A DNA stretch of 59,879 nt from a virus: the IMG/VR virus record IMGVR_UViG_3300031626_000002, positions 1 to 59,879 of that record. One strand, written 5' to 3'. Each line of letters starts with the position of its first letter. The first letter of the stretch is position 1. Positions 26,383 to 59,879 of the stretch are shown here, one piece after another. A program made the translations under genes and the position numbers. Below the pieces are notes generated by a model, which was not told where the DNA came from, made no database searches, and saw nothing but the letters and a program-made list of their open reading frames with translations.

Positions 26383-27873
26383 ATGGGATTTAGAGACTCA
26401 GATACCATAATTGCACCAATTGATGATGGTGGGAGCTTTGATACAGGAGAAGGCTCCACAAGCTCTACAAGTGAATCTGCTGCAAACGCATTAGCCGCTG
26501 CTAACTCTGCGGCAGCTGCTCTTGTTAGTGAGAATAATGCGGAAACATCAAAGACAAATGCAGCTGCCTCGGCATCAACTGCAACAACTAAGGCATCTGA
26601 GGCATCTACTTCTGCCACCAATGCAGCAACCTCAGCCACCACTGCAACCACAAAAGCTTCAGAGGCATCTACCTCTGCTAGTAATGCAGCGGCATCTAAG
26701 ACAGCTGCGGAGACTGCAGAAACAAATGCAGAAACTGCAGAAACAAACGCTGCAGCATCAGCATCAGCAGCTCAAACTGCAGAGACAAATGCGGAAACCG
26801 CTGAGACTAATGCGGGGACTTCGGAAACAAATGCAGCCGCCTCGGCATCCACCGCAACAACTAAAGCATCTGAAGCTTCTACTTCAGCTAGTAATGCGGC
26901 AACATCTGCAACATCTGCAAGCACTTCCGCCACCACTGCAACAACCAAAGCATCCGAAGCCTCTACCTCTGCCAGTACTGCAGCCACTTCCGAAACCAAT
27001 GCAGCGGCATCTAAGACAGGTGCGGAGACTGCGGAAACTAACGCAGAGACCGCTGAAACTAATGCAGCCGCTTCGGCATCAACTGCAACAACTAAAGCAT
27101 CTGAAGCATCTAATTCCGCAACATCTAGCGCAACATCCGCTACTACATCTGAAGCAGCTAGGGACGCTGCACTTGCCGCATTAGATTCATTTGATGATAG
27201 GTATTTAGGGGCTAAGGCATCTGATCCAACTTTAGATAATGATGGTAACGCACTAATCGCTGGTGCTTTATACTATAATACAACTGATAATGTTATGAAG
27301 GTATATACAGGATCTGTGTGGGTTGCTGCTTACGCTTCCCTAGAAGGTGCTCTACTTGTTGCCAACAACTTATCTGATCTTAATAATGCAGGGACAGCTA
27401 GGACAAACATCGGTTTGGGTATTGGTGTGGATGTTCAAGCATTCTCTTCAATTCTAGCAGCAACTACTGTATCTTACACAACAGCGTTAGATACGAAACT
27501 TTCAGGTATTGAGACTAATGCAACAGCAGATCAGACTGGTGCTCAAATTAAAACAGCCTATGAAGCAGAGGCAAACGCCTTTACCGATGCTCAGTTTACT
27601 AAGCTGGCTGGTATTGAAACTGGTGCAACTGCTGATCAGACTGGTGCACAGATTAAAGCAGCCTATGAAGGGGAGACAAGCGCCTTCACCGATGCTCAGT
27701 TTACTAAGCTGGCTGGTATCGCAACAGGAGCAGATGTTTCTTCAAGTACAGTAACACAAGCTTTTGTAAACAACTTAAACGTTGATGCTGAGACACTAGG
27801 TGGGGATACAAAAGCTACTATCCTCTCCACAGCAGAATCAAGCGCACTAGCTTTAGCAATAGCATTGGGATAA
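26383..27873 (+). CDS. Tail fibre with Ala/Ser/Thr repeat shaft
   Basis: A 496-aa protein. Residues about 25-265 are a low-complexity shaft of repeats such as ATTKASEASTSA and AETAETNAETAETNAAAS, like lambda Stf-type fibres that form coiled-coil trimers. A block near 275-310 (LGAKASDPTLDNDGNALIAGALYYNT) matches a common phage fibre module. Residues 365-455 hold repeats of about 44 residues (LSGIETNATADQTGAQIKTAYE). It would contact host receptors or carry further fibre proteins. The DNA is also repetitive, so strain-length variation is likely. Confidence 0.85.
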   Translation: MGFRDSDTIIAPIDDGGSFDTGEGSTSSTSESAANALAAANSAAAALVSENNAETSKTNAAASASTATTKASEASTSATNAATSATTATTKASEASTSASNAAASKTAAETAETNAETAETNAAASASAAQTAETNAETAETNAGTSETNAAASASTATTKASEASTSASNAATSATSASTSATTATTKASEASTSASTAATSETNAAASKTGAETAETNAETAETNAAASASTATTKASEASNSATSSATSATTSEAARDAALAALDSFDDRYLGAKASDPTLDNDGNALIAGALYYNTTDNVMKVYTGSVWVAAYASLEGALLVANNLSDLNNAGTARTNIGLGIGVDVQAFSSILAATTVSYTTALDTKLSGIETNATADQTGAQIKTAYEAEANAFTDAQFTKLAGIETGATADQTGAQIKAAYEGETSAFTDAQFTKLAGIATGADVSSSTVTQAFVNNLNVDAETLGGDTKATILSTAESSALALAIALG

Positions 27874-28188: not shown

Positions 28189-28189
28189 T

Positions 28190-29614
28190 ATGGCTGGTTA
28201 TATTGGTTCTAAGTCATCAGTCACCTTGGTTGATGGCTACACGGAAGCTGAGGCTGATGCTGAGTTTGTCAATGACCCTAACTCTGTAATTACTGTCAGT
28301 GGCTCTAATGTTGGGATTGGCACGGCAGCGCCTAGTTTCCCTCTCTCAGTTCAATCCAACTCAAGCGCAGAAGGTTTACTTATACTTGGAAGATCAAGCG
28401 ATGATATAGGTGAGATTGCGTTTCGTGAGAATGATAATTCTACGGCTTTAGGTGAACTGCAATATCGTCAAGATCATGCCATACTAAGGCATAGAGTAGG
28501 CGATCTGCGCTTTGCTACTGGTGGAACCACAGAACGTATGCGGATTTCAGCGTCAGGAAACGTGGGCATTGGGGCTACTTCTCCTACTGAGTTATTAACT
28601 GTAGGTAATACAAGTACACAGTACACACGGATGCAGTTTTATGCGGCAACTAATGGTGCTAGCACTATTCACTTTGGGGATGGTACATCTGGTGCAGATG
28701 ACTATCGAGGTTATCTAAACTATGCACACGATTCAAATAGTATGCAATTTGCTACCAATGGCACAGAACGTATGCGCATCGACTCGTCAGGCAATGTGCT
28801 TGTGGGTAAGACGAGTGCAGCGTATAATACGGATGGTTTCCAAATTCAGTCTAATGGCATTTCTGGAGCAACCACCTCTTCTGGCAGACCATTTTTTGCA
28901 AACAGGAAAGGTAGTGACGGCACAATTATTGACCTCTACAAAGACGGCTCCACGGTGGGGAGTATTGGTAATCTTGGAAACTATATTTATGTGGCGTCTC
29001 TTGGTCCAAGCGCACGGGGCATCAAGATTACAGACAATCTTATTGCTTCCACTACTACAGGCGCTAATAACGACAATGCTATGGACTTGGGTGGGTCTAG
29101 TGTTCGTTGGCAAGACGTATACGCCACCAACGGCACGATCCAAACATCTGACCGCAACGAGAAGCAAGACATTGAAGCACTCAACGAAGCTGAGACTGCT
29201 GTAGCTGTAGCCTGCAAGGGTCTACTTCGTAAGTTCCGCTGGATAGATGCTGTAGCTGAGAAGGGTGACGATGCCCGTATTCACTTTGGTATCATCGCAC
29301 AGGACTTGCAGGATGCTTTTGCAGCACAGGGTTTAGACGCTGGTCGTTACGCCATGTTCATCTCAGGTACTTGGTGGGAAGCTGACCGTGTAATCCCCGC
29401 TGTAGAGGCTGTAGCTGAAGTCACTGAGACAACTACAGATGAAGACGGTAACGATGTTGTAACAGTTATAACTGAGGCAGTAGAAGCCGTAGCTGAACAG
29501 ACAGTCACAGATACATTCGAGAAAATAGAAGAGGCCCCAGAGGGTGCCACAGAACGTACCCGTCTTGGTGTTCGTTACCCTGAGCTTCTCGCATTTATTA
29601 TAGGAGCCTTATAA
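28190..29614 (+). CDS. Tail fibre with C-terminal S74 chaperone domain
   Basis: A 474-aa fibre. Repeated 'GNVGIGATSPTELLTVGNTS' and 'ERMRIDSSGNVLVGKTS' segments form the shaft. From about residue 320 a peptidase S74 (intramolecular chaperone autoprocessing) domain begins with TSDRNEKQDIE, containing the Ser and Lys of the cleavage dyad. It continues 'RKFRWIDAVAEKGDDARIHFGIIAQDLQDAF'. The domain trimerises, folds the fibre and cuts itself off. The start abuts the preceding gene. Confidence 0.9.
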   Translation: MAGYIGSKSSVTLVDGYTEAEADAEFVNDPNSVITVSGSNVGIGTAAPSFPLSVQSNSSAEGLLILGRSSDDIGEIAFRENDNSTALGELQYRQDHAILRHRVGDLRFATGGTTERMRISASGNVGIGATSPTELLTVGNTSTQYTRMQFYAATNGASTIHFGDGTSGADDYRGYLNYAHDSNSMQFATNGTERMRIDSSGNVLVGKTSAAYNTDGFQIQSNGISGATTSSGRPFFANRKGSDGTIIDLYKDGSTVGSIGNLGNYIYVASLGPSARGIKITDNLIASTTTGANNDNAMDLGGSSVRWQDVYATNGTIQTSDRNEKQDIEALNEAETAVAVACKGLLRKFRWIDAVAEKGDDARIHFGIIAQDLQDAFAAQGLDAGRYAMFISGTWWEADRVIPAVEAVAEVTETTTDEDGNDVVTVITEAVEAVAEQTVTDTFEKIEEAPEGATERTRLGVRYPELLAFIIGAL

Positions 29615-30690
29615 TGTCAGGATATATCGGCACACAGCCTGTCCCTCAGGCTACCCAAACGAGGGATACTTTCACAGCAACCTCAGGTCAAACCTCATTT
29701 GCCACAAGTGGGTATACCCCAAACTACCTCGACGTGTTCCTCAATGGCGTTAAGCTGGCTGCTGCTGACTATACGGCAAGCAATGGTAGTGACGTTGTTC
29801 TGGCAGTGGGGGCAACTACAGGGGATATCCTTGAGGTTGTCGCTTATACTACCTTTGAAATCTCAGGTGTTACTGGGCTAACCCCAAGCATCACAGACAA
29901 TGGTAACGCCACGGCTATTACTATTGATAGCTCAGAACGTGTGCTAGTTGGAAAAACAACCACAGGTTTAGGAAATAAGGGTGCTGAGTTAGACCCAGAA
30001 GGCCAGTTAAAAGCAACATCGAATGGTGTTGTAACGATGTATTTAAATCGACAAACCTCAGATGGCACTATTGCAGAGTTCCGCAAAGACAACACCACGG
30101 TGGGGAGTATTGGGGTAAGTGGCAGCGAACTTTTTATTGGTTCTACGTCCGGCACTGATTCCTACTTAGGTTTTGGTAGTGATATACTAAAACCCGTGAC
30201 AAGCACAGGGGCGGCTAGATCTGGTGCTATTAATTTGGGTAATGCGAATGCCAAATGGAAAGACCTCTACCTCTCAGGCGGTGTTTACCTCGGCGGAACT
30301 GGGGCGGCTAATTATCTAAGTGACTATGAAACTGGGACTTGGACTCTCGGAGTAACAATCGGTGGGTCAGCCCAAACACTTTCAGGGCCAGTTGCCACTT
30401 ATACTAAAGTTGGAAACACAGTAAGTATTAGGATGCGGGTCGGTTTTAGCAAATCTGGGAGTGGTGTTGTCAATATCACTGGCTTGCCTTTTGCTTCTAG
30501 TTTCGGGTCAACTGTGTCTGTTCCGATTGGTTGTCAAGTGGGCAGCGTCACAAGTACGGCAGCGTTATTTGCTAATATAGATTCTGCAACAACTATTGTG
30601 CATTTAGCAGACCAAGCAGGTGATTTAACAGATGCTGATTTTGCCTCAACGGCTTATGTCTTTTCCTCATTCACATATCAAGCAGGGTAA
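29614..30690 (+). CDS. Tail fibre/tip protein
   Basis: A 358-aa beta-rich protein with the opening 'GYIGTQPVPQATQTRDTF' and the block 'DVFLNGVKLAAADYTASNGSDVVLA', both frequent in fibre proteins of marine phages. The C-terminal half has a 'YETGTWTLGVTIGGS' module seen in fibre receptor-binding domains. There is no S74 domain. It overlaps the previous stop (TAATG). Confidence 0.75.
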   Translation: MSGYIGTQPVPQATQTRDTFTATSGQTSFATSGYTPNYLDVFLNGVKLAAADYTASNGSDVVLAVGATTGDILEVVAYTTFEISGVTGLTPSITDNGNATAITIDSSERVLVGKTTTGLGNKGAELDPEGQLKATSNGVVTMYLNRQTSDGTIAEFRKDNTTVGSIGVSGSELFIGSTSGTDSYLGFGSDILKPVTSTGAARSGAINLGNANAKWKDLYLSGGVYLGGTGAANYLSDYETGTWTLGVTIGGSAQTLSGPVATYTKVGNTVSIRMRVGFSKSGSGVVNITGLPFASSFGSTVSVPIGCQVGSVTSTAALFANIDSATTIVHLADQAGDLTDADFASTAYVFSSFTYQAG

Positions 30691-30739
30691 CTCCACACCA
30701 TAGGGGTCGGACAGTCCAACCATCATAGGAGATAAACAG

Positions 30740-30991
30740 ATGGCACTAACAGAAGAAACAGTACAAGACAAAATCGAAATCGTAGGCGACTACAAGCACA
30801 TCCAAGTGCGAACAGCCACGGTCATCAAACGTGACGGAGATGAGATTAGCCGTGCGTTCAGCCGCCATGTCGTTGCACCTAACGATGACATCACAGGTGA
30901 GTCCACTGAGGTACAAGCCATTTGCGCTGCGGTACACACGGATGCTGTCAAGGAGGCATACGCTGCTCACCTAGCCGCACAGGAGGTTTAA
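30740..30991 (+). CDS. Conserved small protein among fibre genes
   Basis: An 83-aa protein with a pattern common in marine phages ('TVQDKIEIVGDYKHIQVRTATVIKRDG' type, N-terminal). It is a likely tail accessory protein, by position between two fibres. AGGAG precedes the start. Confidence 0.65.
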   Translation: MALTEETVQDKIEIVGDYKHIQVRTATVIKRDGDEISRAFSRHVVAPNDDITGESTEVQAICAAVHTDAVKEAYAAHLAAQEV

Positions 30992-30994
30992 GCT

Positions 30995-33900
30995 ATGAGT
31001 AAATCAAGAGACATAGCTGATAGCACCAAGACACTTGATGTCGATGGCGGCACAATCAAGCTGGACGGTAACTATCCTGTTGGTACGAACAACGTGGCGT
31101 TGGGTGATGCTGCGTTGGATAGTAATGTGTCTGGCGCACAGAACACAGCTATTGGTTCTGACGCATTAACTGCCAATACTGCGGATGATAATACGGCTGT
31201 CGGCTGGTCTGCTATGAGTGCGAATACTACGGGGTCTTTAAACGCCGCAGTAGGAAGAAGCGCATTATCTTTAAATACAACAGGCAGTTCTAATACTGCT
31301 TTGGGGTATGCTCCGCTATCTAACAACACTTCTGGTGGAAGCAATGTAGCCATTGGTCGTCAAGCACTCCTGAACAACACCACCGCATCCAACAACACGG
31401 CAGTGGGGTATCAGGCTGGGTATAGTAATACTACGGGTATTCGTTTGTCGGCCCTTGGGTATCAGGCATTATACACAAACACTACTGGCACAGACAACGA
31501 TGCCTTTGGACACCAAGCCCTCCGCACTAATAACGGAAACTATAATCAAGCGTTTGGTCGTTATGCTCTGTATAGTAATACTACTGGCACAAGTAATGTA
31601 GCTATGGGTTCTAACCCTTTGTATACAAATACTACAGGTAGCTATAACGTAGCCTTGGGCATGGAGTCACTATTCTCCAACACCACCGCAAGTTTCAACA
31701 CTGCAATGGGGTATCAGGCTGGGTATAGTAATACTACTGGCACTGCTATGACCGCAATTGGTTATAAAGCTGGGTATGCAAATACTACTGGGGCTGATTT
31801 AACTGCAATTGGTTGGCAAGCTGGGGTAGCATCTACTGGAGCAAACAATACTTTTGTTGGCTCTCAGGCGGGAATTGCAAACCTTGCGGGTTCTGAGAAT
31901 ACTTTTGTTGGTAGGATTTCTGGTGATGCTAATACAACTGGCTCTCAAAACGCTTCCTTTGGGTATTGGTCTTTGTCCGACAACACTACTGGCGCATACA
32001 ACGTAGCTTTAGGAAGCAGCGCACTCAAAGCAAACACCACCGCCTCTAACAACACGGCAGTTGGGTATCAGGCGGCATACTCTACAACGACAGGCAGCTA
32101 CAGCACCTCTGTTGGCTATCAAGCACACTATTCAAATACAACTGGTCGCAACTCTGCTTTGGGTTATGTTGCCCTGCGTTCAAATACAACTGGCACAAAC
32201 AACACAGCGGTTGGGGATAGCTCCCTCTACGCAAATACCACCGCCTCCTACAACACGGCAGTTGGGTATCAGTCTCTTACCTCAAACACCACTGGCACAC
32301 GTAATGTTGGCGTTGGTTATAACACTCTTAGCCTCAACACTACTGCAAATGACAATACATCTGTTGGGCATGATGCGCTTGATGTAAACACTACTGGTGT
32401 TTCTAACACGGCACTGGGTAGTTCTGCATTAGGCTCCAACACCACAGCAAGCTATAATACAGCAGTAGGACACCATTCGTTAAAACTTAACACTACAGGC
32501 TCAGAAAACGCAGGGTTTGGTTCTTTCTCTTTACAAGCTAATACTACAGGCGGTAGTAACACTGCCTTGGGGTATCAAGCATTAGATGGAAACACTACTG
32601 GTAGTAATAGTGTAGCAATAGGTAGAGATGCGTTAGTTGCAAACACCACCGCAGACAACAACACAGCAGTTGGGTATCAAGCTGGGTATGCTAATACTAC
32701 TGGGACGCAAAATACCGCTTTAGGCCGTGTGGCTATGCGAACAAACACGACAGGCAATTACAACGTGTCCGTGGGTTCGGTTGCCCTTTACTACAATACT
32801 ACTGGGTCTAATAATACTGCATTAGGCACACAAGCGTTAAACAACAACACCACCGCCTCCGACAGCACCGCAGTGGGGTATCAGGCGTTATATTCAAATA
32901 CTACTGGCTCTGTTAACACCGCCGTTGGATTTAAAGCGGGTTATGCCAACACGACAGGTATTGTTATTGATGCTTTTGGCTATCAAACTTTAGATGCCAA
33001 CACGACAGGCGAAAGAAACGCAGCGTTTGGTGCGGTAGCTTTAAGTAGCAATACAACAGGTTCTTACAACATTGCTGTTGGTAACAACGCCCTAGCCTCC
33101 AACACCACCGCCTCCAACAACACAGCAGTTGGGTATAATGCGGCTTACAGTAATACTACGGGTTCAGAAAATTCTGCGTTTGGTAAAGAAGCGTTAAAGT
33201 TCAATACTACAGGCTATTACAACGCTGCGTTTGGTCATAATGCTATGCGGGATAACACTGAGGGTTTTGAAAATTCTGCGTTTGGTATGGTGGCATTGCT
33301 TGAAAATACTACGGGTGATTACAATACGGCTTTAGGTACGAGAGCATTACAAAATGCTACAACGGCTGATGCAAATACTGCGGTTGGACGTTCGGCTCTT
33401 GTATCAAACACCACAGGCTCAGGCAATGTTGCGTCTGGTTATTTATCTATGGAAAATAACACAACAGGGTCCAATAACGTAGCACTTGGTAGGCAGTCTC
33501 TAGACCAAAACACCACCGCATCCAGCAACACAGCGGTTGGGTATCAGGCTGGGTATGCGGCTACTCAGGGGGCCAACACATTTGTAGGTCAGTGGGCGGG
33601 ATACAATGCGGCAACTGGAGAGTCTAACACTTATGTAGGGTATGCTTCTGGGACTAACAGCGGGACAGGAAGTGGTAGTAATAACTCTTTCTTTGGCAGA
33701 GATTCAGGATTATACGTTACATCAGGCTCAAAGAACACCATCCTTGGCAGCTACAACGGCAACCAAGGCGGCTTGGACATCCGCACCTCAAGCAACAACA
33801 TCGTGCTGTCTGATGGGGATGGTAATCCTAGGATGTGGGTTTCAGGTGGTGGAGATACTTTCTTTGGTAAATTTACTTCTGGTTTGACTAATACTCCTGG

Positions 33901-34366
33901 AGTTACCATATTTGACTACTCTAGGGCAGTATCTCTAACAACAAATAATAGTGTTTACCCATCTCTTACAACAAACCAAGTTGGTTTTGGTGGAACAACT
34001 ATAAGTTTTAGATACACCAATGCCCAGTCAGGGAATATAGCAACACTAAGCAATTCGGTGCAATTTAATACTTCATCAGACTACAGATTAAAAACTGATG
34101 TTCAGCCTATGGTAGGGGCATCAGAACGTCTTCTGAAACTTAAACCAGTAAACTTTGCTTGGGTTTCAACTGGTAATCGTGTTGATGGTTTTCTTGCACA
34201 TGAAGCACAGGCAGTTGTACCAGAAGCAGTACATGGCACACACAACGAAGTTGACGATGATGGCGTTGCTGTAATGCAAGGCATCGACCAATCCAAACTT
34301 GTCCCGCTTCTAGTTAAAACTATCCAAGAACTTGAAGCACGTATCACAGCCCTAGAAGGAGCATAA
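30995..34366 (+). CDS. Giant YadA-like repeat fibre with S74 domain
   Basis: An 1123-aa protein. Residues about 25-925 are dozens of repeats of roughly 17 residues of the form NTTGSxNTAxGxxALxx, the pattern of the left-handed trimeric beta-roll of YadA-type adhesin heads. A transition region follows. A C-terminal S74 autoprocessing domain starts at SSDYRLKTDVQ (Ser/Lys dyad) and ends in a coiled coil (LVKTIQELEARITALEG). Such a protein would form a long trimeric fibre whose chaperone domain is released by self-cleavage. Bacterial trimeric autotransporters use the same repeats for adhesion; here the fold probably serves host binding. Confidence 0.88.
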   Translation: MSKSRDIADSTKTLDVDGGTIKLDGNYPVGTNNVALGDAALDSNVSGAQNTAIGSDALTANTADDNTAVGWSAMSANTTGSLNAAVGRSALSLNTTGSSNTALGYAPLSNNTSGGSNVAIGRQALLNNTTASNNTAVGYQAGYSNTTGIRLSALGYQALYTNTTGTDNDAFGHQALRTNNGNYNQAFGRYALYSNTTGTSNVAMGSNPLYTNTTGSYNVALGMESLFSNTTASFNTAMGYQAGYSNTTGTAMTAIGYKAGYANTTGADLTAIGWQAGVASTGANNTFVGSQAGIANLAGSENTFVGRISGDANTTGSQNASFGYWSLSDNTTGAYNVALGSSALKANTTASNNTAVGYQAAYSTTTGSYSTSVGYQAHYSNTTGRNSALGYVALRSNTTGTNNTAVGDSSLYANTTASYNTAVGYQSLTSNTTGTRNVGVGYNTLSLNTTANDNTSVGHDALDVNTTGVSNTALGSSALGSNTTASYNTAVGHHSLKLNTTGSENAGFGSFSLQANTTGGSNTALGYQALDGNTTGSNSVAIGRDALVANTTADNNTAVGYQAGYANTTGTQNTALGRVAMRTNTTGNYNVSVGSVALYYNTTGSNNTALGTQALNNNTTASDSTAVGYQALYSNTTGSVNTAVGFKAGYANTTGIVIDAFGYQTLDANTTGERNAAFGAVALSSNTTGSYNIAVGNNALASNTTASNNTAVGYNAAYSNTTGSENSAFGKEALKFNTTGYYNAAFGHNAMRDNTEGFENSAFGMVALLENTTGDYNTALGTRALQNATTADANTAVGRSALVSNTTGSGNVASGYLSMENNTTGSNNVALGRQSLDQNTTASSNTAVGYQAGYAATQGANTFVGQWAGYNAATGESNTYVGYASGTNSGTGSGSNNSFFGRDSGLYVTSGSKNTILGSYNGNQGGLDIRTSSNNIVLSDGDGNPRMWVSGGGDTFFGKFTSGLTNTPGVTIFDYSRAVSLTTNNSVYPSLTTNQVGFGGTTISFRYTNAQSGNIATLSNSVQFNTSSDYRLKTDVQPMVGASERLLKLKPVNFAWVSTGNRVDGFLAHEAQAVVPEAVHGTHNEVDDDGVAVMQGIDQSKLVPLLVKTIQELEARITALEGA

Positions 34367-34368
34367 CT

Positions 34369-34584
34369 ATGACTGACGCACCAACCACAGAAGAAATCGC
34401 AGCACACTACACAGCAATGGGTCACTCAGTTGACTTGATTAACGCTGGTCAACCAGAGGATATGTCCGATGAAGATTGGGCAGACACAGTGTCTCGCAAT
34501 GTCGAGCATCTGGTACTGATGGTAGCTAAAGACTACTGGACTACAGAAGATATGACCGCTGCCAACGCTGCAATCGCAGCTTAA
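34369..34584 (+). CDS. Small acidic protein after fibre
   Basis: A 71-aa acidic helical protein ('EEIAAHYTAMGHSVDLINAG'). Proteins of this type commonly follow S74 fibre genes in marine phages. Function unknown; perhaps a fibre chaperone. Confidence 0.65.
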   Translation: MTDAPTTEEIAAHYTAMGHSVDLINAGQPEDMSDEDWADTVSRNVEHLVLMVAKDYWTTEDMTAANAAIAA

Positions 34585-34600
34585 CTTAAAGGAGACTGTC

Positions 34601-34813
34601 ATGGGTAAAAATGAAAAGAACCTCATCACTGTCAACGACATCGAATACAATGTAGATGACTTCACTGACGCACAGAAGACTATGCTTAATCATGTAAGCG
34701 ATTTAGATCGTAAGCTGGGTTCCGCACAGTTTAACTTAGATCAGCTTAACGTGGGCCGTGAGGCTTTTGTTGGGATGCTGGCTGGATCTCTCGAAGCACC
34801 AGCGGAAGATTAG
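34601..34813 (+). CDS. DUF6447-like small protein
   Basis: A 70-aa protein with 'ITVNDIEYNVDDFTDAQKTMLNHVSDLDRKL' and 'AQFNLDQLNVGREAFVGML', the DUF6447 layout widespread near tail-fibre genes of marine phages. Function unknown. GGAG lies upstream. Confidence 0.75.
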   Translation: MGKNEKNLITVNDIEYNVDDFTDAQKTMLNHVSDLDRKLGSAQFNLDQLNVGREAFVGMLAGSLEAPAED

Positions 34814-34816
34814 TAT

Positions 34817-56930: not shown

Positions 56931-58550
56931 CTATGTAGCTATGTAATCAAAACCAACCTCTTTATTCTGAAGTCGGGTAGTCTGTGCATCATATGTTGCA
57001 GCACCAGCATCACCTGTCTTACCTGTGAACCTAGACTTAAGCACCCTGAATTGAACAGTGTTACGTTCGTATTCATCGGCTGCTGTTAGGTTCCTAGAGA
57101 ATGCAACGATGTCAAAGGAGATCTGTTTGATAGAACCAGAACCCTTGATGTCATCGATGGATGCAATGTTACCATCCTCGAATGCTTTACCACCTTGTGC
57201 TTTACGAAGGTGAGAGATCAAGCCTAGCCAGATGTTGTGTCGCTTGACGATTTTGAGGAGGTCGGACATGAACTTGTCGATGGCTTCGTTACCTGATAGA
57301 CCGTCACTTCCTTCTGATACAGCGATTGTGATGTGGTCGAGGACCAGATATTTACAACCCATGAGGGCCATGTATTCGATCTTATCAATGAGGCTGTCAT
57401 CTCCAACTGATCCTTGGTGGTCGAGGAGGACGAGTCTTTCATCTCCAAACACTTGTTCAAAGCCCTGTCTAAGTTCATCTTCAGCCGGAGGTGTGTCTTC
57501 ATTAAGCGACTTCTTGAGTACCATGCCAATGAACTTCTCTGCCGTGTCTCCAACGCTTTCTTCCAGACTGATAAGCCCCACCCGATCTTCTGTTTTGTGG
57601 AGAAGATCCAGGATAATCTCTTTGATAATAGTAGACTTACCACTGCCAGTTCCAGAAGTGAATAGAGTAATCTCACCATGCCTAATCCCCTTTAATTTAC
57701 TATTTAAACCACTCAAACAATCAGGGTAGGGTACACACTCTACGTTCTGTCGTTGAATGAATTGATCCCAGATAGGTTTACCTGTAACGATACCTGAGGG
57801 GTTCCAACTCTGTGCATTCCACACACACTCTAGCAAAGTCTTCCAACCATGCTTGAGTAATGTAGCATTAGCGTCATTCTCTGGTAGCTTTGCGACTTTA
57901 GCCTTACCTGGTTTAATCATTTTACCAAGGAAGTCAGACATCTTCTTACCAGCTTCATCCTGATCCATCATAATTACGACAGTCTTGAAGGAGTTTATCC
58001 AATCCCTTTGAGCAAGAGCACAAGAGGTAGCAGATGAAGAAGGTACAGCAACCACAGAATAGGTTCTTCCGTACTTTTCTTTGTACGCTTGCGCGACACT
58101 GAGGGCATCGACTTCACCTTCACAGATGACCAACGTAAATCCAGATGTTGATTGTTGTTGTCCGAATAGTTCGACATTTTTAAAGTCTCCATGAGTACGA
58201 AACTCTTTTGGGAGCTTACGCTCTTTGTATGCAGATAGTTCTCCATTGATAGTGTAAGGGTAGAAGTGTGATTGAGGTTTACCATTAATATCTACAGACA
58301 TTTTGACATTGTAATGATCAATCACATCCTGAGAGATCCCACGACTAGACATTGGATAGCTTCTGTATGTACTAATCTCATCGATAATAGACGAGTTCAC
58401 AAGGAAGTCGTCTTGTTCTATCAGTTCCATTGGTTCTCTTTCATTTATAAATATGGTTGTGCCACATGAAAAGCAGTGGCTTCTTGGGTTGTCATCGTTA
58501 TACACATGGTTAGCATCAGAGCTTCCACATTTTTCACAATTAGTTTTCAC
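56931..58550 (-). CDS. Bifunctional primase-helicase (T7 gp4-like), full copy
   Basis: A 539-aa protein from GTG 58550. Zinc-binding Cys5, Cys8, Cys26 and Cys29 are followed by the TOPRIM primase core (LVICEGEVDALS near 140, VVIMMDQDEAG near 195). The RecA-type helicase carries Walker A GTGSGKST near residue 300, Walker B 'YLVLDHITIAV' near 400 and a following 'GLISHLRK' motif. It makes primers and unwinds DNA ahead of the polymerase as a hexamer. The first half is duplicated, with substitutions, at 1-823. Confidence 0.95.
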   Translation of the reverse strand: MKTNCEKCGSSDANHVYNDDNPRSHCFSCGTTIFINEREPMELIEQDDFLVNSSIIDEISTYRSYPMSSRGISQDVIDHYNVKMSVDINGKPQSHFYPYTINGELSAYKERKLPKEFRTHGDFKNVELFGQQQSTSGFTLVICEGEVDALSVAQAYKEKYGRTYSVVAVPSSSATSCALAQRDWINSFKTVVIMMDQDEAGKKMSDFLGKMIKPGKAKVAKLPENDANATLLKHGWKTLLECVWNAQSWNPSGIVTGKPIWDQFIQRQNVECVPYPDCLSGLNSKLKGIRHGEITLFTSGTGSGKSTIIKEIILDLLHKTEDRVGLISLEESVGDTAEKFIGMVLKKSLNEDTPPAEDELRQGFEQVFGDERLVLLDHQGSVGDDSLIDKIEYMALMGCKYLVLDHITIAVSEGSDGLSGNEAIDKFMSDLLKIVKRHNIWLGLISHLRKAQGGKAFEDGNIASIDDIKGSGSIKQISFDIVAFSRNLTAADEYERNTVQFRVLKSRFTGKTGDAGAATYDAQTTRLQNKEVGFDYIAT

Positions 58551-58580
58551 CAGAAATCCCTTTCGGTTTTTATATCACGA

Positions 58581-58979
58581 TTACGATTCTTTTTCTGTCG
58601 AGTCTTTGAATGCTTCGAATCCCACTTCAAGTTCTTTTGCTTTTGCAACTCGAACCCAGAGGTATTCTCTTCCTCGTTTAACTCTGTCTCTTTGAAGGAT
58701 GATTCCTTGTACCGTTTTATCATTGAACTCCTCGAATATACTTTGATAGGTATCAAGTAAAGGTTTGATTATGTTATCTAAATCAGAGGCTTTATTAGAG
58801 AGACCAGCATATACAATGAAGTGGACAGGGCTATCTTTAAAAGCCCATGTCTCACCCATTAGCATAACTGCCATCTCCTCTTGGAACCTCTTGTAATCAG
58901 CTGTCTTGTAGGTTGTCCTGCCTTTCCGAACAAACATCCTGTTTGCTGATAGTGGTTTCATCTGGAATAGGTTTTCCAT
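58581..58979 (-). CDS. RusA-like resolvase, right copy
   Basis: Counterpart of 854-1252, about 132 aa, same start context (ATG 58979). The active-site signature SDLDNIIKPLLD is unchanged; differences are mostly near the C-terminus (…AFKDSTEKES against …AFKDSDKKES). Substitution without disruption indicates a functional allele from a sister strain. Confidence 0.82.
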   Translation of the reverse strand: MENLFQMKPLSANRMFVRKGRTTYKTADYKRFQEEMAVMLMGETWAFKDSPVHFIVYAGLSNKASDLDNIIKPLLDTYQSIFEEFNDKTVQGIILQRDRVKRGREYLWVRVAKAKELEVGFEAFKDSTEKES

Positions 58980-59250
58980 TGCGCCTCTCTGCTGTTCTAA
59001 TAGCATGACAGTTATGGCACACCACTTCTGTTTTAAATACCTCATTAAGTATATCACCGATATCTTTATCACAAGAGATCATTCGAGATACGTTGTGAAG
59101 TTTCTCATACTTAGGTAGATGGTCGAACCCTAGAGCATCTGGGTGTTTATCATAACCACAATCAGTACACCCTATATCAGTCTTCAGTATCCCTATGAAC
59201 TGACGCTTGCTTTTTCGACTTATACTCTTCAATTTGTTTCTTAATATCAT
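58897..59250 (-). CDS. HNH endonuclease-like protein, right copy
   Basis: Counterpart of 1170-1523, 117 aa. The zinc knuckle CTDCGY and CHNCH cluster are identical; changes cluster in the last 20 residues, which overlap the RusA gene start. Same nested overlaps with both neighbours. Confidence 0.78.
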   Translation of the reverse strand: MILRNKLKSISRKSKRQFIGILKTDIGCTDCGYDKHPDALGFDHLPKYEKLHNVSRMISCDKDIGDILNEVFKTEVVCHNCHAIRTAERRNGKPIPDETTISKQDVCSERQDNLQDS

Positions 59251-59879
59251 CTAGCTCTTCCCAAGATGTTAACATTGTTAATAGACGCTTGGAAGTGTCC
59301 GGATTACCGGACCTGTTTGTTCTCCAAGCAGCTCGCACCCTATTCCACCTGCGGTGCATAGGAACTCCATGTAGTATCTTCTCTGCTTTCTTAGGTCCAA
59401 CTCCTTTAATTCCAGGGATATTATCAGACCTATCCCCAGTAAGGCATTGAAGCATAAGCTTAAGATTAGCAGTGTCTTCATCAACCTCTGTGATTTCTTT
59501 CTTAACAAAGTTGTAATGTGTTCCAGGAATCTGGAGAAGATCTTTGTCAATTCCAACTACTGTATACTCCTGATCAGCAGATCTACACTCAGCAGCCCAG
59601 ATGGCAACAAGATCATCTGCTTCCATATCATCTGCCTCAACAGCAGAATACTTCTCAACCATGTACTTATGCCCATAGTTTAAGGCTTCTTTAACACTAG
59701 GCTCTATCTCCTTTCGGGTTCCTTTGTAGGGAGGGTAGATATCCTTTCGGAAATTACCCCTCCCCTTAATTGCTACGAGGAAACTATCAGACCCACAGTT
59801 ACGTTGGATCTCTCTCATAGTGTTGTCAATTCCCACACGTATCTCTTTCTGTTTGGTTGTTACACAAGCCATCCGAAAG
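59177..59879 (-). CDS. 5'-3' exonuclease, right copy (5' end cut by edge)
   Basis: Counterpart of 1450-2152. The first 15 or so residues, with the VDSDS metal site, lie beyond the contig edge. An in-frame Met at 59872 is internal (residue 19 of the full protein). The EADDMEADDLV and GDRSDNIPGIKGVGP motifs are present. Truncation is due to the contig end. Confidence 0.88.
   Translation of the reverse strand, partial: FRMACVTTKQKEIRVGIDNTMREIQRNCGSDSFLVAIKGRGNFRKDIYPPYKGTRKEIEPSVKEALNYGHKYMVEKYSAVEADDMEADDLVAIWAAECRSADQEYTVVGIDKDLLQIPGTHYNFVKKEITEVDEDTANLKLMLQCLTGDRSDNIPGIKGVGPKKAEKILHGVPMHRRWNRVRAAWRTNRSGNPDTSKRLLTMLTSWEELDDIKKQIEEYKSKKQASVHRDTED

Follow-up and report, generated by a model that had tools for sequence, protein, structure and literature searches.

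Genome and fibre locus

On the plus strand of the window, by which we mean the whole stretch of DNA analysed (59,879 bases, IMG/VR record IMGVR_UViG_3300031626_000002), lies a gene for a phage fibre of 1123 amino acids, set within a cassette that also holds other tail genes. The features discussed below are as follows.

28190..34814, plus strand: fibre cassette, absent from related genomes (edges from blastn)
28190..29614, plus strand: a second S74 fibre, shorter at 474 aa, whose domain starts with S-D-R-N-E-K
29614..30690, plus strand: 358-aa tail protein (phrog_22560, E 4.4e-6)
30995..34366, plus strand: fibre gene, 1123 aa, ATG start, with matches to PHROG 23837, 6002 and 4636
30995..31090, plus strand: short N-terminal part, residues 1-32 (MSKSRDIADS...GGTIKLDGNYP)
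31091..33733, plus strand: array of 52 x 17-aa units, consensus NTAVGYQALYSNTTGSN, residues 33-913
31404..31434, plus strand: 31-nt exact repeat, copy 1, which holds the 21-mer quoted in the first-pass annotation
31707..31737, plus strand: 31-nt exact repeat, copy 2
33734..33829, plus strand: collar, residues 914-945 (NTILG...NNIVLSDGDGNP), pairwise identity 0.82
33830..34030, plus strand: hypervariable segment, residues 946-1012, pairwise identity 0.19
34076..34363, plus strand: Peptidase_S74 chaperone and C-terminal helix, residues 1028-1123
34076-34078 and 34091-34093, plus strand: codons of Ser1028 and Lys1033

Peptidase_S74 is the sole Pfam family above cut-off in the fibre protein, and NCBIfam gave no match to it at E<=1. 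PHROG 23837 (E 4.5e-158), 6002 and 4636, which are labelled virion structural or tail spike, each match the array in 9 or 10 stretches, with E values from 4.5e-158 to 6e-133. No close relative of the window fibre was found, the best segments of large matches reaching ~52%. The first-pass annotation had read the gene as a 1123-aa phage fibre with an S74 intramolecular chaperone, and on this Pfam, the PHROG tail and virion families and the Ser/Lys dyad agree; the fibre is of a known design and ordinary in kind, a long S74-capped fibre that is represented in PHROG. Residues 1-32 would probably serve as the attachment end and as a cap to the array, and the cap motif GGTI[KR]L[DN]GN[YF]P recurs in 18 of the 43 related arrays, a set that includes arrays without their 5' end.

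The window also encodes a T7-type RNA polymerase, a family A DNA polymerase, Thy1, a toprim/DnaB protein and a terminase, and a ribonucleotide reductase (RNR) gene, whose matches include phage nrdJ, adjoins the fibre gene. The nearest capsid of a cultured phage, among 50,697 phage records, is that of Roseobacter phage CRP-7 (54.8%); capsid relatives with up to 99% identity also exist. PMC6918029 presents CRP-7 as a short-tailed phage that infects marine Roseobacter of the RCA lineage and stands for a new group. Judged by its sequence, the window virus is a T7-like marine podovirus and kin of CRP-7, and the CRP-7-like capsid, taken together with the host of that phage, suggests a Roseobacter-like host. 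Positions 1-2152 and 57728-59879 of the window carry the same 2.15 kb in direct orientation (94.8% identical); the contig probably goes once around a genome of ~57.7 kb, two strain versions meeting where it overlaps, the alternative being diverged terminal repeats.

C-terminal chaperone and proposed fibre tip

The S74 model PF13884 matches residues 1028-1080 (E 7.1e-9, 36.3 bits against a cut-off of 22) and scores 42.3 bits in the genome search. We aligned the last 210 residues of 33 proteins, namely the window fibre and those of 32 of the 43 arrays, the arrays left out being near-duplicates, truncated or without S74. Ser1028 and Lys1033, five residues apart, are invariant in all 33 domains, and their spacing equals that of the known cleavage dyads S911/K916 in endoNF and S587/K592 in MyRF (excerpts of PMC8326128). 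A profile of the S74 alignment, run against PDB sequences, matched MyRF (7dc3, E 1.2e-12) and the L-shaped tail fibre 8hqz, as well as tail fibres 8jov and 6f45. S74 is present (E<=0.01) in 38 of the 44 repeat proteins scanned; the L022, L038 and L039 proteins are cut at a contig end, and L025 is half of a split frame. Two other repeat fibres, L015 and L020, end in a shared ...GQVPVNVTGATVGDF...AKIIVKVA instead of S74, which is possibly another chaperone type. A helix is predicted at residues 1099-1122 of the window fibre with a pLDDT of only ~46-67 there, and the 432-residue C-terminal model as a whole is poor (mean pLDDT 57.6); a fold search with this model gave no useful match, the best being a K5A lyase at E 0.027 and TM 0.20.

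Mean pairwise identity among 25 C-terminal parts is 0.82 in the collar (residues 914-945), 0.19 in segment 946-1012, whose length varies from 46 to 126, 0.52 in the pre-cleavage stretch, 0.75 in S74 and 0.83 in the final helix. We propose that the hypervariable segment would be the tip of the mature fibre. In the relatives compared, S74 DNA that is almost unchanged comes after tips unrelated to one another, and the switch lies near the codon of the putative cleavage serine. Of 2479 pairs drawn from 71 S74 sites in the fibre loci, 90 have at least 85% identity in the 90 nt that follow the Ser codon; 28 of these 90 share no 16-mer 60-500 nt before it, and the codon profile of these 28 drops at the Ser codon. 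When same-tip sites are joined, this leaves 17 distinct pairs, which involve 20 tip clusters. At equal residues, codons agree at 0.75 after the joint and at 0.39 before it, against 0.48 in background pairs. Because the loci were partly chosen by S74 peptide patterns, likeness after the joint is favoured, and the unlike tips are therefore the informative side. The S74 site of the window has no partner above 0.70. That S74 occurs on unrelated fibres is already known, four protein families being given in excerpts of PMC8326128; what is new here is the position of the DNA joint.

The array might instead be a structural spacer only, with host binding carried out by the S74 fibre encoded at 28190-29614 or by the product of 29614-30690. 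The cassette does hold several tail proteins, a second S74 fibre among them, and the spacer reading implies that the hypervariable segment varies for other reasons. We regard it as somewhat unlikely, since no other part of the fibre varies nearly as much as the segment immediately ahead of the predicted cleavage site, and this segment changes where the S74 DNA does not. Genes 28190, 29614 and 30995 could also encode several parallel fibres, only one of them binding the host. Our preferred reading is that the hypervariable segment of the repeat fibre would be exposed as its tip.

The repeat array and its predicted fold

Units were located with an iterated 17-column profile, the threshold of which was taken from 200 shuffles of the fibre protein. 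The large repeat number claimed at first pass was borne out by the profile, which counts 52 contiguous 17-aa units over residues 33-913, or 881 of the 1123 residues. Spacing is exactly 17 in 45 of the 51 unit gaps, and glycine stands at unit position 5 in all 52 units. Within the array, residue self-identity peaks at lags 17 (0.448) and 34 (0.387), with 0.05-0.16 at the other lags from 5 to 35. A higher-order repeat was rejected, lags 1 to 20 being flat except for weak values at 13 and 17 (z 2.1 each, uncorrected). A limited literature search found no published description of the 17-residue unit. A bacterial origin was also considered and rejected; a scan of genome contigs, with one genome per species over 84,980 species, gave three related loci, all in metagenome-assembled genomes.

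The AlphaFold2 model of ten units (single chain, 45 aligned rows; pLDDT 78.9, pTM 0.72) is a regular coil with three short strands per 17 residues, and five repeat models ranged in pLDDT from 57.5 to 78.9. Foldseek found no match of the repeat model in the PDB at E<=0.001. The best PDB alignments given by VIA-align are to beta-helices such as the Dettilon tailspike (Z 12.8, 162 residues, 2.4 A), which we take to be right-handed, at a Z (~13) that by the tool's own warning can be reached by repeats without kinship. A search of the predicted viral structures of BFVD gave 18 matches at the E 0.001 level, the best ones with 42-49% identity to the array; at the top stand a 938-residue protein without a name and the FhaB-like adhesin from Bodo saltans virus (TM 0.95 by query, 49% identity). 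From these models we can say with fair confidence that the array is predicted to be a beta-solenoid, tentatively a right-handed one. The same solenoid repeat is seen in the predicted structures A0A2H4UUJ5 and A0A481YXX9, which belong to Bodo saltans virus and a Marseillevirus.

At first pass the array had been described as a YadA-like beta-roll built of head repeats of trimeric autotransporter adhesins (TAAs), and a true YadA-type head, a left-handed parallel beta-roll that a phage fibre had acquired from bacterial adhesins, has several points in its favour. Half of the unit (GxxNTAxG) resembles part (GxNSVAIG) of the YadA head motif, which excerpts of PMC9543794 give as 14 residues, GxNSVAIGAxSxAx, or 15 in UspA1; short Gly-containing beta coils are common to both, and Gly5 of each following unit lies seven residues after Gly15, as in YadA. 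All five sub-threshold matches of YadA_head (PF05658) in the window lie in the array. Excerpts of PMC3909814 describe in a pelagiphage a fibre that combines S74 with a 3S6L_A 'YadA-like' region, where metagenomic coverage is low, and a YadA-like region joined to S74 in marine phages is therefore not new. However, the unit is of 17 residues in 750 of 914 spacings over 43 arrays rather than 14 (15 in UspA1), its return stretch has ten residues against seven in YadA, and three strands are predicted per coil. The best YadA_head match scores 13.4 bits against a cut-off of 25 and covers half of the model, while Pfam hmmscan of the fibre protein gave no YadA hit at E<=10. A 45-sequence profile found no TAA in PDB sequences at E<=10, the only match being a weak one to carbonic anhydrase, and no TAA membrane anchor was found by Pfam, which gave S74 only at E<=0.001 and one unrelated sub-threshold match at E<=10. 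No YadA-type adhesin is among the 50 best VIA-align matches listed, which excludes nothing. With its unit of 17 rather than 14 residues, PF05658 below cut-off and a three-strand coil, the array does not sustain the YadA description, and we hold a true YadA head to be improbable and the predicted beta-solenoid to be the better reading. Kinship with gamma-carbonic anhydrase was rejected as unstable (E 0.01 with 9 sequences, 0.33 with 45).

The repeats had further been called nearly exact in places at the DNA level, and this is true of one pair only. The quoted 21-mer, TCAGGCTGGGTATAGTAATAC, occurs exactly twice, at 31411 and 31714. The 31-nt pair exceeds all of 300 codon simulations (maximum 29 nt), its copies stand 303 nt (six units) apart, and it looks like a recent local copy. 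Elsewhere the claim fails, mean DNA identity between window units being ~0.52. The only arrays that Tandem Repeats Finder reports within the fibre gene are one of 51 bp in 2.4 copies (31703-31825) and a short one of 15 bp, and synonymous codon agreement between units is at the codon-shuffle level at 19 of 20 lags (lag 17: p 0.02, uncorrected). Taken as a whole, the array is old. Codon diversification against recombination was tried as an explanation and rejected. Window units share codons at 0.357 against 0.393 predicted from the usage of other genes (z -2.6), but the sign varies among the 43 arrays (negative in 19, mean z +0.4); with this and the flatter usage of neighbouring genes, the window signal is therefore read as the cassette's own composition.

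Unit number and block exchange in related phages

Related arrays, 43 in number from at least 41 loci, hold 8-77 units, some of them being cut by contig ends. The suggestion of the first-pass annotation that copy number may vary between strains is thus upheld in relatives, where near-identical contigs carry exchanged blocks; no sister of the window fibre was found among the relatives compared, and variation of unit number within the species of the window virus is a prediction. The genes of L010 and L013 differ at a single place, at which three units face two of different sequence (net 51 nt), and are otherwise identical. The middle of the L013 block is new, with no match at that place in L010 and with in-gene flanks that are 100% identical, and exchange with another fibre is therefore likelier than simple deletion. 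L032 carries 20 units and L041 15, their flanks being almost identical and the block between them replaced; in L022 and L038, each truncated at its 3' end, a diverged block contains a difference of 102 nt. The difference between L011 and L019 is 318 nt, which is not a multiple of 51 and could reflect collapse or deletion between repeats. Equal arrays also occur, with 15 units each in L041 and L042 and 19 each in L038 and L039.

All IMG/VR contigs compared are metagenome-derived, so that assembly error in single cases is possible, and repeats are a usual source of misassembly. That the differences in unit number between near-identical contigs are artefacts of this kind is decidedly unlikely all the same, as the DNA of the units has diverged considerably (~0.52 identity in the window) and collapse alone cannot give the three-for-two swap of L010 and L013 between 100% identical flanks. 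In another pair, L006 and L025, the flanks are 97% (left) and 92% (right) identical and most of the fibre between them is unalike, which by its sequence appears to be a further example of exchange ending near the S74 site.

The exchanged fibre cassette

The edges of the cassette were located by blastn of the window against 65 related loci (L083-L147). On the right, similarity starts at 34812-34815 in all 27 loci that cross the edge (26 contigs, L129 and L100 lying on the same one), just past the stop codon of the small gene 34601-34813. The left-hand similarity breaks off at 28189, immediately ahead of the first codon of gene 28190, in 7 loci from 5 contigs, and in most other loci it ends near 26.5 kb or earlier. 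Left of the right-hand joint, the 20 loci inspected have other fibres, small tail genes and some S74-like motifs. None of the 117 loci L083-L199, many of which are fragments that do not cover the place, has at least eight 17-aa units. From the edges and the lack of repeats in these loci, we therefore infer that the repeat fibre arrived with an exchanged module. Codon usage in genes 28190, 29614 and 30995 is flatter than in most core genes, which may point, if weakly, to the same module.

The small gene 34601-34813, of 70 aa and directly left of the joint, has counterparts (ITINDKEYT...HLSDLDRKI) in several relatives; these are recognisable left of the joint, with their DNA unaligned in blastn. 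Positions 26383-27873 encode a 496-aa Ala/Ser/Thr/Asn-rich repeat protein with DNA repeats of 63 bp, 21 bp and 105 bp. It is similar to tail fibre PHROGs and is likely a proximal fibre part.

Proposed mechanism and comparison with known systems

We consider it probable that the gene encodes a trimeric fibre that is folded by, and then cut from, its S74 chaperone, exposing a hypervariable tip, and that this fibre is remodelled by recombination. By analogy with the family, three chains would associate through the C-terminal S74 domain and its helix, and the 52 units would fold into the predicted beta-solenoid shaft. A solenoid coil takes up ~0.48 nm, at which the shaft would be ~25 nm long. Once the trimer had folded, the conserved dyad Ser1028/Lys1033 would cut the chain just before Ser1028 and the chaperone would leave, making segment 946-1027 the new end and the likely receptor-binding tip. 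Sequence comparison of relatives indicates that fibre length and surface change through in-register recombination between units and that tips are replaced with a boundary near the cleavage codon; the cassette edges indicate that the whole fibre cassette is swapped between phages.

Beyond this one fibre, we offer the tentative suggestion, one we would not yet back on balance, that a widespread beta-solenoid repeat family serves marine phages as a recombination-driven diversification system without reverse transcriptase, with S74 as its constant 3' anchor. Pfam found no reverse transcriptase (DGR) among the 16 window proteins scanned. If the suggestion is right, in-register exchange of unit blocks would set the length and surface of the shaft, and new tips could be attached at the cleavage codon itself without losing their folding and release. 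The host range of abundant ocean phages is set by such fibres, many of which are annotated 'hypothetical' or 'tail structural'. No Pfam or NCBIfam model fires on the repeat family, and a curated model of the 17-aa unit would aid the re-annotation of many phage and some giant-virus proteins. The dissection given here locates the likely tip and yields a simple rule, that the cleavage codon is the joint, while unit number is a countable trait that could be tracked over time in long-read viromes. What we add is a corrected view of the repeat, natural copy-number variation and block exchange in relatives, the edges of the cassette and the joint of the tip.

Among known systems, the endosialidase, the K5 lyase, the T5 L-shaped fibre and MyRF likewise have S74 at the fibre end and the same Ser/Lys spacing, and their C-terminal helix has a candidate counterpart in the helix predicted at residues 1099-1122; unlike these, the window S74 is carried on a 52-unit repeat shaft. 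The FhaB-like adhesin of Bodo saltans virus has the predicted repeat fold in common with the window fibre, but belongs to what we take to be a giant virus. PHROG 23837, 6002 and 4636 share the array match, and their entries carry no described mechanism. Gp48 of Roseobacter phage CRP-7 and gp37 of CRP-1, each a 'putative tail structural protein', have the same 17-aa units (20 and 21, respectively) and an S74-type end in which the Ser and Lys are aligned, and the CRP-7 gp48 gene adjoins RNR genes as the window fibre gene does; in comparison with the window fibre, however, both have under half the units and a different tip, and they are about half identical to it.
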